Below, piece after piece: positions 4,239 to 9,545 of a stretch of DNA of 64,000 nt. The DNA is taken from the NCBI RefSeq assembly GCF_006874625.1, contig NZ_CP030034.1:1736001-1800000 (forward strand). Direction: 5' to 3'. The stretch comes from Bdellovibrio sp. NC01 (GTDB taxonomy: Bacteria > Bdellovibrionota > Bdellovibrionia > Bdellovibrionales > Bdellovibrionaceae). The notes under the pieces were generated by a model. It was not told the DNA's origin, did no database searches, and saw only the letters and a list, made by a program, of their open reading frames with translations. Position 1 is the first letter of the stretch; each line of letters opens with the position of its first letter. A program made the translations under genes and the position numbers.

Positions 4239-4721
4239 ATGCTTAAGAAAGCAGCATGTGCTTTGGCGTTGATTACTTGCGCAAGCGTAGGTCACGCAAA
4301 AGAACTTACAAATCGTTTGGGTGTTGGTGTTAAAAGTCACGAAACTTTGGATCTTCCAGAGTTGGCTATCGTTTACAATCCAACAAATGAAATTGCTATC
4401 ACAGGCGGTTTGGGTATCGATACTAAGAAAGACGAATCTAAATTCGCAGCGAACGTGGGCGTTCGTCGTATCGTGTTTAAAGAAGACAATATGAACTTCT
4501 ACATGGGCGGTACGTTCGGTCTTGTGAACTGGGAAACAGCCGGCGATAAAGAATCAGGTATTGAACTTGATGCTGTCTTCGGTGGTGAGTTCTTCTTGCC
4601 TGGTTTGGATTCATTGGGTTTTACATTTGAAGGCGGTGCGGGCGTTCTTTCAACAGACAATGTTCGTTTCAGAACAATCGCTGACAGCCCACTTCGTGCG
4701 GGAATTATTTTCTACTTCTAA
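4239..4721 (+). CDS. Small outer-membrane beta-barrel-like protein
   Basis: 160-residue exported protein with a signal peptide cut after about residue 20 (VGHA). The mature part is a run of alternating amphipathic strands (for example NEIAITGGLGI, NFYMGGTFGLV, LGFTFEGGAGVL) and ends in the aromatic IIFYF, a classic C-terminal signature for beta-barrel assembly. This suggests a small 8-strand barrel, but no family is recognised. A good AAGGAG ribosome-binding site lies upstream. ridA follows 11 nt after the stop and may be co-transcribed. Confidence 0.65.
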   Translation: MLKKAACALALITCASVGHAKELTNRLGVGVKSHETLDLPELAIVYNPTNEIAITGGLGIDTKKDESKFAANVGVRRIVFKEDNMNFYMGGTFGLVNWETAGDKESGIELDAVFGGEFFLPGLDSLGFTFEGGAGVLSTDNVRFRTIADSPLRAGIIFYF

Positions 4722-5753: not shown

Positions 5754-6578
5754 ATGGACTCTTTGCTGACGCAAATTGATTCCTTAGGCAGATTTATTAC
5801 CAAAAACGTGGAGTACACATTGCGTGTCCTCTTGATGGTATACCTTTCTCTTCGTGCGACTGTTCTGGATCAGGCGCAAGGCCTTCGCCAAATCTTCGGA
5901 GTTATTTCAGCGCAAATTTATTTCACCGGCTGGCAAGCGCTTCCGCTTGTGACCGTGTTAGCGTTGGGTACGGGCGGAGTTTTGATTTTACAATCACTGA
6001 CAAATTTAACTCTGCTAGGCGGAACTGCGATGATCGGGAACTTTCTGATCGTGATGGTTTTGCGTGAGGCAGGTCCATTACTTGTTGCCCTTGTCGTGAT
6101 CGCACGCTCGGGGACTGCTGTTGCTTCGGAACTTGGTAACATGCGTGCGAATCGTGAAATCGAAGCCCTTGAAAGTATGGGTATTAATCCGCTGAGTTTC
6201 ATCGTGTTCCCACGTGTGTTGGGCGGTGTTGTCAGCGTTTTGTGTCTGGCATTTTATTTTAACTTTATGGCGTTAATCGGTGGATTTGCGATTACTCGTC
6301 TTATTCAGGATATGCCGTTTGCGTTTTATTCTGATTCATTGATGCGCGCCTTTACGAAGGAAGACGTGTTTATTTTCCTTCTTAAAAACAGCTTCAGCGG
6401 AATGATTATATTTGTGGTGTCATGTTATCAAGGCTTGTCTGTGAAAAAGAGCCCGCATGAGGTTCCTCAGGTTACAACTCAAGCGGTTGTAAACAGTATT
6501 ATCTTCGTCGTGATTTTCAATTTAATGGTTACAGCTTTGTTTTATCTCAATCAACTTCGCAATTTGGGGGTGGTCTAA
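5754..6578 (+). CDS. mlaE: MlaE-family lipid ABC transporter permease
   Basis: 274-residue inner-membrane permease of the MlaE (YrbE) family, which moves phospholipid-like substrates between the inner membrane and a periplasmic MCE protein. It shows about five hydrophobic helices and the diagnostic loop MRANREIEALESMGINP (about 130-146), which couples to the ATPase. First gene of a tight operon: its TAA overlaps the ATG of the ATPase gene, and an MCE gene follows. No MlaB STAS gene is present. A GGGACGG stretch precedes the ATG. Confidence 0.9.
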   Translation: MDSLLTQIDSLGRFITKNVEYTLRVLLMVYLSLRATVLDQAQGLRQIFGVISAQIYFTGWQALPLVTVLALGTGGVLILQSLTNLTLLGGTAMIGNFLIVMVLREAGPLLVALVVIARSGTAVASELGNMRANREIEALESMGINPLSFIVFPRVLGGVVSVLCLAFYFNFMALIGGFAITRLIQDMPFAFYSDSLMRAFTKEDVFIFLLKNSFSGMIIFVVSCYQGLSVKKSPHEVPQVTTQAVVNSIIFVVIFNLMVTALFYLNQLRNLGVV

Positions 6579-7288
6579 TGAAAATCGAAAGTCTTAAGTT
6601 TGAAGGCGTATCATTTACGCACGAAGGGCAAGAGCCAATCATTCACAACGTGGAATTCGATTTCCCAATGAACGAAATTCTTTGGGTTAAAGCTGAAGAA
6701 GGTGCTGGCAAAAGCTCTTTGCTGCAAATTTTAGGTGGCTTGCAAATCCCTCAATCAGGCCAATATTTGATTAACGGTGAAAACGTTGTCGATATGTCGT
6801 TTGAAGAGTTTTTGCCATACCGTTTGCAAATCGGCTATTCATTCGATTACGGCGGTTTGATTAATAATCGTACTTTGTATGACAACTTGATGTTGCCACT
6901 TCTTTATCACAAAGCTGTTTCGCAAAAAGAAGCGAAAGAGCGTGTTGATGAGATGATCCGTATTTTTGATATCGGTAAATTCGCCAATGAACGTCCTGCC
7001 CATGTGCCAGGTCGTGTTCGTAAGTTGACGTGCTTGATGCGCTCGCTTGTTATGAGACCGCAAGTTTTGTTGCTTGATGATCCAAGTGTCGGTCTTGGTC
7101 AAGATAGCGTTTACACATTCGTAGATTACGTTCATCAGTTACGTAAAGAAGGTTGTTTGAATCACGTATTCATCAGTTCATACGATGAAAAATTCATGAA
7201 CTTGATGAATTACCAGATCATTCACCTTGATGAAGGCCAATTGTACTTCCAAGCTGTCGATCCAGAGAAAAGAGTTGTTCACCTATGA
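6578..7288 (+). CDS. MlaF-like ABC ATPase subunit with degenerate catalytic motifs
   Basis: 236-residue ABC-ATPase fold placed where MlaF is expected, between permease and MCE genes, with overlapping starts on both sides. Walker A is AEEGAGKSS (residues 39-47), keeping GxGKS but losing the first Gly. The Q-loop Gln is Asp90, the LSGGQ signature is replaced by VPGRVRK (about 143-149), Walker B is LLLDDP with Asp168 in place of the catalytic Glu, and the H-loop His is replaced within SSYDEK (about 200-205). ATP may be bound, but normal hydrolysis is doubtful. Overall length and position argue for a real, maintained subunit and not a pseudogene. Confidence 0.85.
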   Translation: MKIESLKFEGVSFTHEGQEPIIHNVEFDFPMNEILWVKAEEGAGKSSLLQILGGLQIPQSGQYLINGENVVDMSFEEFLPYRLQIGYSFDYGGLINNRTLYDNLMLPLLYHKAVSQKEAKERVDEMIRIFDIGKFANERPAHVPGRVRKLTCLMRSLVMRPQVLLLDDPSVGLGQDSVYTFVDYVHQLRKEGCLNHVFISSYDEKFMNLMNYQIIHLDEGQLYFQAVDPEKRVVHL

Positions 7289-8241
7289 GGCCTTTGAAGT
7301 TCAATAAATACGAACGGGTCGCGGGACTTTTTGTTCTGTGTGCGATCTTCGGGGTTGCATTGACTGCTGTCAGTGTCGCGATCAAACAAGGTTGGTTTGA
7401 AACGAAAGTTTACTATACCACGGTGTTTGAAACGGCCGACGGTATTCATCAAGGTACAACGGTACAGATGGCGGGGCTTCGTGCTGGCGCTGTTGATGAC
7501 GTTGAACTTGAAGACAACAACCAAGTTCGTGTGACGTTCTATGTTTTGGGCAAATTTCAAAATCGTGTTCGTCAAGACAGCGGCATTCAGTTGATTCGTC
7601 CGTTTGTGATTGGTGAACGAGTGATTGACGTGAGTGTGGGATCTGAAGCAAGTCCTGTGCTTGCTGCAAATAGTTTTATTAAGTCGACGGAAACCACAGA
7701 CTTTATGACTTTGATGAGTGGCAAACACTTGAATCAATATCTGGGTAAGCTCGGTGGTATTCTTGAAAACATGCAGATCCTAGTGGAAGCGTTTGCAGAT
7801 AAAAAACGCGCGCAAAGTATCGTCAGTATCTTTGACCGTATGGACCCGTTGATTAAAAACTTGAATACAATGTCTGTCGAAGTGATCAAGCTTTCAAAAC
7901 AAGCAACCCACGATGATGGTGTACAAAAGTTAGTTGGCAACTTGGCAGTGACAACGGGAGAGATCAATAAGATCCTTCCAGAGTTGAATGAAGAAAATCC
8001 GAAGTTGGCAAAAGACTTGGCGTCTATGACGCAAAACTTGGCAGTTATGACCAAAGCGTTGGGCCCCGCAGTTCAGGCGGTTGAACCACAACTTCCAGGC
8101 GCTAGTGTGCGCCTTGTCGAAGCTTTAAATGAAACTGTCGTTGTTCTGAAGGCGATGCAAAAAAGCTTTTTCATGAAAAGCAACGTGAAGGAAGTCCAAG
8201 AGGAAGAATCCACACGCCGCGTTCCTGCGAATTCGAAATAA
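7285..8241 (+). CDS. mlaD: MlaD-like MCE domain protein
   Basis: 318-residue protein with one N-terminal transmembrane anchor (about 11-32) and a periplasmic MCE domain (about 38-118). The conserved DGIHQGTTVQMAGLRAG and IGERVIDVSVG segments are typical. The MCE domain forms the hexameric lipid-carrying ring of Mla-type systems. After it comes a long helical, partly coiled-coil tail (about 140-290) and a charged C-terminus. That is longer than E. coli MlaD (about 180 residues) and suggests a needle-like extension. The ATG overlaps the ATPase stop (ATGAG). Confidence 0.88.
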   Translation: MRPLKFNKYERVAGLFVLCAIFGVALTAVSVAIKQGWFETKVYYTTVFETADGIHQGTTVQMAGLRAGAVDDVELEDNNQVRVTFYVLGKFQNRVRQDSGIQLIRPFVIGERVIDVSVGSEASPVLAANSFIKSTETTDFMTLMSGKHLNQYLGKLGGILENMQILVEAFADKKRAQSIVSIFDRMDPLIKNLNTMSVEVIKLSKQATHDDGVQKLVGNLAVTTGEINKILPELNEENPKLAKDLASMTQNLAVMTKALGPAVQAVEPQLPGASVRLVEALNETVVVLKAMQKSFFMKSNVKEVQEEESTRRVPANSK

Positions 8242-8279: not shown

Positions 8280-9545
8280 ATGCTAGTTGGGCATCTCTTT
8301 CGTCATTTTATCTTCTCTAAACGTGCAGGAGCGCTGGTAAAGCGTATTGCTTGGCTGTCGATGGGGGCGATCTCTATCAGTGTGACAGCGTTTTTAGTTG
8401 TTCTGTTTGTGATGAATGGGATGAATGCCAGTATTAAATCGCGCATTGTCGGTCTTGAGCCACATATGTACGTGCAAATTCCTACGGCTAAAACAGCGCA
8501 AGCATTAGAGGTTCACCCGAGCTTTCAGCGCTTGAAAGAAGATCCAGGCAACAAAGTTTATGTCTATGAAACCCAAGACATCATCATTCGCAGTCAGGAT
8601 GGACAATTTCGCGGTGGTATTGCGCGAGGTGTGACAAAGCCAAGTCTTGAGCATTTTGTCGAACAACTGCGAAAGCTCGACAGTAAAAAACCTTCGACGC
8701 AAAATCTGAAAGATGAAAGTCCCACTTACTTCTGGGACCCGCAAGAGATTCCAGATGAGGGCGAAGTTGTTCTGGGTGTTGATCTTGCGCAATCGCTGGG
8801 TGTCTTTGAAGGTGATTTCATCACGGTGGTGTCGCCTGCAGGCTTGTTGTTGCCGCCTGGGGAAACTCCAAAATTTGAACGTGTGCGTATCAAGAAGATT
8901 GTGACGACGAGTCTTGCCGATATCGATTCGCAGTATTTGTTCTATCAGCGTGGTAAAGCGCTGAAGCAACTTGATAATGAAGGCTTAAAGAAAATCGGTA
9001 TTGAAGCGTGGCTTTCCGATGAGTCAAAGATCGATAGCGTGAAAGAAGATTTGTTGAAATTCCCAGACGTGCAGGTTGAGACGTGGGAAGATCGCAATGG
9101 CGCTTTGCTTTACGCTTTAAAATTAGAAAAGCTGACAATTGGGTTCTTTTTAGGTCTTGCTGGGATGATTGCGGCAAGCTCCATTCTGACGGTGTTAGCA
9201 CTTTTGCTTTCGCAAAAAAGAAGGGACATCGCGATTCTTCGTGCGATTGGATTGTCGGGTCGTTTGACGGTTCGTACATTCACACAAATCGGTTGTATGT
9301 TGTCGGCGATCGGTGTGCTGACGGGCGTGATTTTAGGAACCGGTATTGGCATTTATATCGAACACAATCCGATTAACTTCTTACCGCAGCAAATTTATTA
9401 CGATGCTTCGATCCCGGCTCTTGTCGACTGGAAATTGGTTGTTGGAACGTTGTTTGTCAGCGCTGGGATTGCGTGGTTGGGATCTTACGTTCCAGCTAGA
9501 ACATCTTCAGAAGTTCAGCCATCAGAAGCTTTGCGCATTAAATAG
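8280..9545 (+). CDS. LolC/LolE-type FtsX-family permease
   Basis: 421-residue ABC permease with one N-terminal transmembrane helix (about 20-45), a large periplasmic domain (about 46-270) and three C-terminal helices carrying the FtsX-like domain, including the coupling segment RRDIAILRAIGLS. This is the architecture of LolC/LolE, which release lipoproteins from the inner membrane to LolA. No LolD ATPase is adjacent; it would have to be encoded elsewhere or shared. It sits 38 nt after the MCE gene in the same direction and is followed by a terminator, so it is probably the last gene of that operon. The MacB-type permease is an alternative but fits the length less well. Confidence 0.8.
   Translation: MLVGHLFRHFIFSKRAGALVKRIAWLSMGAISISVTAFLVVLFVMNGMNASIKSRIVGLEPHMYVQIPTAKTAQALEVHPSFQRLKEDPGNKVYVYETQDIIIRSQDGQFRGGIARGVTKPSLEHFVEQLRKLDSKKPSTQNLKDESPTYFWDPQEIPDEGEVVLGVDLAQSLGVFEGDFITVVSPAGLLLPPGETPKFERVRIKKIVTTSLADIDSQYLFYQRGKALKQLDNEGLKKIGIEAWLSDESKIDSVKEDLLKFPDVQVETWEDRNGALLYALKLEKLTIGFFLGLAGMIAASSILTVLALLLSQKRRDIAILRAIGLSGRLTVRTFTQIGCMLSAIGVLTGVILGTGIGIYIEHNPINFLPQQIYYDASIPALVDWKLVVGTLFVSAGIAWLGSYVPARTSSEVQPSEALRIK

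Follow-up and report, generated by a model that had tools for sequence, protein, structure and literature searches.

Sequence evidence for an ancient loss of ATPase motifs from the MlaF-like subunit of one MCE system across the phylum Bdellovibrionota

Results

The window analysed here, a stretch of 64,000 nucleotides from the Bdellovibrio sp. NC01 genome (one contig of 3.98 Mb), contains a three-gene MCE operon in which the central gene encodes a MlaF-like ABC nucleotide-binding subunit with degenerate ATPase motifs. We name this subunit MlaF* and its two operon partners MlaE* and MlaD* (Table 1). The mlaF* gene is one uninterrupted reading frame, 236 codons long with a terminal stop codon, overlapping mlaE* by 1 base and mlaD* by 4 bases; the first-pass annotation had described the frame as undamaged over 236 codons and overlapping both flanking genes, and frame analysis confirmed this. 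All three products scored above the Pfam cut-offs (ABC_tran, 65 bits for MlaF*; MlaE, 215 bits; MlaD, 49 bits), and MlaE and MlaD were present on either side of MlaF* in the loci of the class wherever the contig reached far enough. No mlaB lies beside mlaF* in the operon, and no MlaC was detected in the genome by a search that found MlaC in E. coli and Caulobacter. In a structure model of MlaD*, the MCE domain leads into a mainly helical stretch of about 160 residues; the model is of low confidence (pLDDT 66, pTM 0.39) and was used for the list of elements alone.

Several further features were seen around the operon. A small protein with a signal-peptide-like start and no Pfam match is encoded at window positions 4239-4721, upstream of RidA, and is conserved in many genomes of the order. 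Some loci have a gap between MlaD* and the LolC/LolE-like permease, a gap that the window is without, and a conserved frame of roughly 160-210 amino acids was found there in 12 of the 12 gap-bearing loci chosen and translated (L079, L087, L117 and L129 among the examples); the 2 of these 12 translations that were scanned gave no Pfam match above the cut-off. One genome (G142, contig 58) holds a second, diverged MlaE*-MlaF*-MlaD* copy (L130) with a stop codon within the mlaE* match.

Table 1. Genes and sequence features of the operon, in window positions
Feature	Position	Strand	Basis
MlaE*: permease, distinct MlaE clade, coupling-helix region still MlaE-like	5754..6578	+	Pfam, tree
MlaF*: MlaF-like ABC nucleotide-binding subunit, degenerate ATPase motifs (putative pseudo-ATPase)	6578..7288	+	frame, Pfam, alignment, AlphaFold model
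Walker A AEEGAGKS, residues 39-46; K45 and S46 kept, first Gly lost	6692..6715	+	
Residues 75-111 (FEEFLPYR...FDYGGLINNRTLYDNLMLPLLYH); most conserved segment; decays where MlaE* is lost	6800..6910	+	
Q-loop FDYGGL, residues 89-94; Gln90 to Asp; acidic in 89/95 orthologues	6842..6859	+	
Signature VPGRV instead of LSGGM, residues 143-147	7004..7018	+	
Walker B VLLLDD, residues 163-168; D167 kept, catalytic E168 to Asp	7064..7081	+	
D-loop GLGQ instead of GLDP, residues 172-175	7091..7102	+	
Switch/H-loop SSYD, residues 200-203; His to Tyr202	7175..7186	+	
MlaD*: N-terminal helix, MCE domain, helical C-terminal extension	7285..8241	+	Pfam, structure model
LolC/LolE-like permease; usually the next gene; adjoins MlaF* in the genus without MlaE*/MlaD*	8280..9545	+	

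Motif positions were set by alignment with E. coli MlaF and the intact paralogues of the same genome. The GxGKS core, reported in the first-pass annotation as kept, is indeed present (G42, G44, K45 and S46), though residue 39 is changed from Gly to Ala. That annotation had also listed the Q-loop Gln, the LSGGQ signature, the catalytic Glu and the H-loop His as altered. The alignment placed three of these changes at the catalytic positions themselves (Q90D, E168D and His202 to Tyr), with the Walker B region reading LLLDDP and the switch region reading SSYDEKF (SHD to SYD). For the signature, S144P and G146R are real losses, while the missing final Gln is not, as the last signature residue of MlaF is normally Met (LSGGM) according to the motif description in PMC7367683. 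The loss of the D-loop Asp comes in addition to the changes listed before. Aligning MlaF* with E. coli MlaF and 50 intact paralogues ruled out that the residues are shifted rather than lost. Judged by these substitutions, MlaF* is very probably dead as a catalyst.

MlaF* is under purifying selection like that on MlaE: within the genus (23 loci each), mean pN/pS was 0.111/0.791 for MlaF*, 0.103/0.714 for MlaE and 0.182/0.765 for MlaD, these ratios being rough with synonymous sites near saturation. The motif loss, which had been proposed to be either tolerated or selected, is real and old and sits in a protein that selection maintains. A sequencing error, a frameshift or a pseudogene is ruled out by the open frame, by purifying selection in the 23 genus loci and by the presence of MlaF* in 97 of 101 class loci. 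Retention of the fold, also claimed before, agrees with a confident ABC-domain model (AlphaFold2 with 36 sequences; pLDDT 92.9, pTM 0.90) that matches E. coli MlaF (6xgz) with a Z of 25.9 and an rmsd of 2.6 over 229 residues. FtsE, LolD, YbbA, MacB domains and E. coli MlaF were the best structural matches, all in a narrow Z range, and the predicted fold is that of an ordinary, intact NBD.

An MlaF* match was found in 64 of 79 genomes (the source genome and 78 relatives; E 1e-32), and the matching permease MlaE* in 100 of the 143 genomes of the class (E 1e-40). From those 100 genomes 101 class loci were read, 97 with MlaF*; two truncated copies (L095 and L104) were dropped to give 95 complete rows. 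Of the other sets of rows, one excluded L161, whose match region contained a stop, and another excluded L133, L155 and L160, in which MlaD is incomplete or absent. The remaining four class loci (L118, L119, L125 and L126) yielded no readable MlaF*; three of them lie on contigs that stop after MlaE*, and in the fourth MlaE* leads into an antiporter-like frame. In this last locus (L125; G036 contig 68, 3514-5517), MlaE* is in frame with cation antiporter-like sequence and no MlaF* follows, and the fusion is probably an assembly chimera of a draft genome.

None of the 95 complete orthologues kept the full set of K45, Q90, S144-G145, G146, E168 and H202, so that the alignment with MlaF homologues of Bdellovibrionota, suggested earlier as a check, found the residues lost. 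Taken singly, K45 is kept in 70 of them, S46 in 85 (with Thr in 5 more), Q90 in 1, S144 in 31, G145 in 84, D167 in 94 and E168 in 11, while His stands at exactly position 202 in a single orthologue (L055) and one or two residues off this position in L068 and L103. The three best-preserved orthologues (L074, L101 and L105) keep K45, the SGG signature and E168 and are without the Q-loop Gln and the switch His, and the catalytic parts that have been lost differ between MlaF* lineages. A new motif, FDxGGL, spans the Q-loop (F89 in 94, D or E at 90 in 89, G92 in 91, G93 in 93 and L94 in 93 of the 95).

These counts bear on whether MlaF* still uses nucleotide. One reading is that MlaF* binds ATP without hydrolysis, with binding and release gating MlaE* as a ligand-gated lipid channel. 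In its favour, K45, S46 and D167 are retained in most orthologues, and K45 and S46 are kept in all 23 aligned orthologues of the window's genus, as is D167 in that genus. However, K45 is lost in 25 of 95 orthologues through at least 8 changes on an MlaE tree that covers 77 loci, including 5 of the 23 from the genus; well-supported branches force 3 of these changes. Walker A is, furthermore, beyond recognition in G053, G059 and G049 and in genus g3, and 64 of 95 orthologues have another residue at the position of the signature Ser, which clamps ATP in the dimer. The loss of K45 indicates that ATP binding cannot be the shared function, though it is possible in the window's genus, and it weakens nucleotide binding alone, proposed earlier as one way of regulation, as a general explanation; gating by ATP is thus unlikely. 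The acidic residues at position 90 (89 of 95) and position 168 (88 of 95) fit instead with a slow or unconventional but working ATPase, in which Asp168 would act as the base and Asp90 or Tyr202 would take other roles, and an Asp in place of Glu need not be fully dead. By contrast, the changes affect five motifs together, E168 is gained and lost on the tree as if unconstrained (9 changes versus a mean of 10.4 in shuffles) and the gene is kept in lineages without Walker A. We consider such a working enzyme very unlikely.

An intact MlaF paralogue (the L090 system) served as the control, with orthologues taken from 24 genus genomes (23 of which matched) and 32 diverse genomes. All nine checked residues were kept in 50 of the 50 orthologues aligned. 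The orthologue coexists with MlaF* in 28 of the 32 diverse genomes (56-100% identity), in answer to the earlier suggestion to look for a second, intact MlaF; G050, G059, G064 and G078 have other MlaF paralogues only. The 50-row control excludes L229 and L230, which are different paralogues. The comparison of 50 intact controls out of 50 with 0 of 95 indicates that the motif loss is confined to the MlaF* subunit and does not concern the MlaF of the phylum in general, and a phylum-wide relaxation of all MlaF is ruled out for the paralogue tested. The genome has five MlaE genes, each with a MlaF beside it, and no orphan MlaF. As the other four MlaE each have a MlaF of their own, the idea that another ATPase drives transport through this system is weakened.

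Outside the class, MlaE* was found in 12 genomes (E 1e-50; 368 genomes of the phylum searched), with an adjacent NBD at 11 of the 12 loci and the contig ending after MlaE* at the twelfth. By-eye reading found all 11 readable orthologues to be degenerate, with an acidic Q-loop residue in 11, the catalytic Glu in 1 (L196) and the switch His in none. For the MlaF, MlaE and LolD/FtsE-comparison trees, class loci were chosen manually to give a wide spread (32, 33 and 11, respectively). A branch with 100/99 support separates all 45 MlaE* (33 from the 101 class loci plus the 12 from outside the class) from the five MlaE of non-degenerate systems, in a tree with long branches and a bootstrap not fully settled. 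The MlaF tree groups MlaF* of the class and of family f12 on one side (100/100) with L196 and L199-L201 outside, and a single origin of degeneration is therefore not established by the tree. A non-exhaustive contig scan with one short conserved peptide pattern gave at least 36 loci, nearly all in bins named as Bdellovibrionota-type; the named relatives were Bdellovibrio and Bdellovibrionaceae, with 86% identity to B. bacteriovorus strain kdesi. Taken together, the sequences indicate that the loss of ATPase motifs in this one MCE system is real, ancient and selected across the whole phylum.

The ancestry of MlaF* is less evident from its own sequence. The NCBIfam models for FtsE (105 bits, cut-off 264.85) and LolD (98.7 bits, cut-off 307.75) outscore the MlaF model (73 bits) on MlaF*, all far below their cut-offs, so that MlaF* fails the curated LolD and FtsE models. 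In the LolD/FtsE-comparison tree, from which long-branch rows were left out, MlaF* joins intact MlaF with weak support (81/73) and a grouping with LolD/FtsE is disfavoured (p-AU 0.049). A MlaF ancestry is likely, from position rather than sequence.

To locate remaining constraint, mean pairwise identity per position was compared in the 28 genomes holding both MlaF* and the intact paralogue. Identity was 1.00 in intact MlaF versus 0.63 in MlaF* at ATP-contact positions and 0.61 versus 0.33 at background positions. The corresponding values for segment 75-111, which runs through the Q-loop into the helical subdomain and carries FDxGGL, were 0.75 and 0.67, and this smaller drop indicates that the segment kept most of its constraint. 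The Q-loop/helical-subdomain region of ABC transporters is where the NBD meets the coupling helix of the permease.

A genus of the same family, g3, allows this segment to be viewed in the absence of the permease. MlaE* was not found in 14 g3 genomes (E 1e-45), and MlaE* and MlaD* gave no match at E 1e-5 in the locus stretches of six genomes. The neighbours in those six are a small outer-membrane-like protein, RidA, DUF218 and the LolC/LolE-like permease, with DapD in 4 of the 5 longer stretches (missing in G044). A MlaF* homologue is found in 6 of 6 genomes read (L262-L267), directly before the LolC/LolE-like gene. When five of the g3 frames were compared by BLAST with the reading frames of 27 loci of the source genome, E. 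coli and two relatives, MlaF* was the best match for all five (E 1e-19 to 1e-28) with other ABC proteins at best at 2.5e-7, and profile-profile comparison gave 99.9% probability. Every ATPase motif is erased in these proteins, with SSNP or SANP replacing Walker A, and 2 of 6 fall below the Pfam ABC_tran cut-off. The identity of segment 75-111 decreases from 0.74 in 21 family members with MlaE* to 0.35 within g3, where it also bears a deletion, and the C-terminal part is conserved (residues 161-192 at 0.62 and 193-236 at 0.55). Over 15 pairs, pN was 0.21-0.47 versus a pS of 0.73-0.88. That the segment decays where MlaE* is gone indicates that its conservation tracks MlaE*, and the segment is probably a contact to MlaE*.

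On the other hand, the retention of MlaF* in g3 without MlaE* and MlaD* and with its motifs erased points to a further role needing neither partner nor ATP. A second, MlaE*-independent role of MlaF* in g3 is likely, and scaffolding of MlaE* cannot be the whole story. This raises the question of whether the main partner of MlaF* is the LolC/LolE-like permease, with MlaF* as its pseudo-NBD or as a regulator of lipoprotein release, given that MlaF* lies directly beside this gene in all six g3 genomes after the loss of MlaE*/MlaD* and that the FtsE and LolD models score above the MlaF model, at values far below the cut-offs. However, segment 75-111 tracks MlaE* while the LolC/LolE-like gene is present in both groups; it lies on the opposite strand in 3 loci (L102, L108 and L128), and at some further loci, L068 and L083 among them, none was found close to the operon; an intact LolD-like gene is encoded elsewhere in the genome (L005, scoring 272 bits and so short of the 308-bit cut-off); and the grouping of MlaF* with LolD/FtsE is the one disfavoured above. 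Such a main partnership appears rather improbable.

Discussion

The reading that we favour, as somewhat likely, is that MlaF* is a pseudo-ATPase scaffold holding MlaE* in a nucleotide-free, open state and so making an ATP-independent MCE lipid conduit. MlaF* would be an NBD that has kept its fold and its grip on the permease without hydrolysing ATP, taking the place of MlaF in a MlaE*-MlaF*-MlaD* complex; that it binds MlaE* is quite probable. Without a cycle of binding, closing and hydrolysis, MlaE* would be held nucleotide-free and outward-open, and MlaE* together with the MlaD* ring would form a standing, ATP-independent lipid path between the inner membrane and the periplasm. Lipid movement would then be driven by supply and demand, most likely outward, and energised transport would be left to the intact MCE transporters of the genome. 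The helical extension of MlaD* (~160 residues in a low-confidence model) could help to bridge the periplasm. The sequences themselves show the lost catalytic residues, the conservation, the selection, the predicted fold, the synteny and the behaviour of segment 75-111. From these data we infer that MlaF* has no ATPase activity and acts as a scaffold, that lipid flows passively and in which direction, and also the substrate and the bridging of the periplasm, with direction and substrate drawn by analogy to E. coli. Of the three options offered in the first-pass annotation for lipid movement, the passive, ATP-independent one fits best, while a drive by another ATPase and control by nucleotide binding alone have both lost ground. 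Some points run counter to a pseudo-ATPase: MlaF* of the window's genus retains K45, S46 and D167 and may thus still bind nucleotide; an Asp at position 168 can leave slow turnover; and 3 of 95 orthologues are short of the Q-loop Gln and H-loop His alone.

The logic of an open permease comes from E. coli MlaE: by this logic, a permease with NBDs unable to close would stay open and let lipid leave the inner membrane. Nucleotide-free MlaE is described in PMC10212509 as V-shaped and open to the MlaD channel, and the same account gives lipid transfer from MlaD to MlaC as spontaneous and without ATP, with ATP hydrolysis reported to prevent outward transfer. By this analogy a passive conduit is plausible at slightly under an even chance. 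However, genetic and recent biochemical data are stated there (PMC10212509) to favour inward transport for E. coli Mla, so that an outward role here would be a difference and not a copy. As for the motor, E. coli MlaF carrying K47A or E170Q fails to complement as reported in PMC7367683, while MlaFEDB with E170Q kept about 20% activity in the assay described in PMC7784689.

The system resembles E. coli MlaFEDB (MlaF, PDB 6xgz/6xbd) in the adjacency of the MlaE, MlaF and MCE-domain genes, in the NBD fold (Z 25.9, 229 residues aligned) and in a recognisable coupling-helix region of MlaE. By contrast, E. coli MlaF keeps the Q-loop Gln, LSGG, the catalytic Glu and the switch His, none of which MlaF* has in canonical form, and it needs K47 and E170 according to the mutant data of PMC7367683; the lack of an mlaB beside mlaF* and of a detected MlaC in the genome are further differences from MlaFEDB. 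The minimal MlaEFD of Veillonella parvula is similar in having three genes only and no MlaA/MlaC, and its MlaD is likewise longer than that of E. coli and has a helical region, as presented in PMC10665443. Its mlaE and mlaF, unlike mlaF*, are described as closely resembling the genes of model diderms, in a survey that mapped Mla across 1,083 genomes and found MlaF by synteny (PMC10665443). In our search of the open-access literature, neither a degenerate MlaF nor an ATPase-free MlaE system turned up as reported for Bdellovibrio. The PqiABC/LetAB MCE lipid systems (PqiABC is mentioned in PMC10897342) are not known to use a MlaF-type ATPase and have PqiA/LetA as the inner-membrane partner, whereas MlaE*-MlaF*-MlaD* has a MlaE permease with an NBD.

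There is disagreement over which way Mla/MCE systems move lipid and what powers them. A natural and strongly conserved MCE system with no competent ATPase would set what the motor does structurally apart from ATP hydrolysis, and with the MlaF* system the passive-outward model could be put directly to the test beside the ATP-driven paralogues of one cell. Genus g3, with MlaF* but no MlaE*, provides a natural map of the permease-binding segment, and its MlaF* would exemplify an ABC domain turned to a non-enzymatic use. More broadly and more tentatively, there may be an ancient class of MCE 'ABC transporters' free of ATP, in which MlaF* locks an always-open MlaE*-MlaD* bridge and has a role of its own in the permease-less genus, perhaps as a pseudo-NBD partner of the LolC/LolE-like permease.

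Loss of a catalytic Glu with the fold and the transporter kept is also described for ABCB11, which has one degenerate nucleotide site (PMC7544095). Such transporters retain one working site per dimer, whereas a MlaF* homodimer would have two dead sites, unless MlaF* paired with an intact MlaF from another locus to make a heterodimer with one active site, in the manner of asymmetric ABC transporters. An apparently asymmetric MCE system with two MlaE and two MlaF in the same genome makes this conceivable, and 7 of 95 orthologues keep the SGG signature while K45 and E168 are lost. However, the five MlaE with five adjacent MlaF genes leave no orphan as a partner; in the window's family the ATP of the partner would face the VPGR signature, damaging both composite sites; and the MlaF* operon itself has one MlaE and one MlaF*, with Walker B and signature both altered. 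A heterodimeric MlaF* is therefore highly improbable, and our literature search found no report of a heterodimeric MlaF.

The two-MlaE, two-MlaF system (L091, G000:C1:3867894-3871020; orthologues L231-L256) is an observation in its own right. In one of its nucleotide-binding subunits, NBD-a, the signature is broken ([IL]S[YF]G in 17 of 17) and Glu and His are intact. In the other, NBD-b, SGG is intact, Glu is changed to Asp in 26 of 26 and His to Asn in 23 of 26, the exceptions (L253, L255 and L256) being diverged copies. From these residues, the L091 system looks like an asymmetric heterodimer with one canonical and one degenerate composite site.
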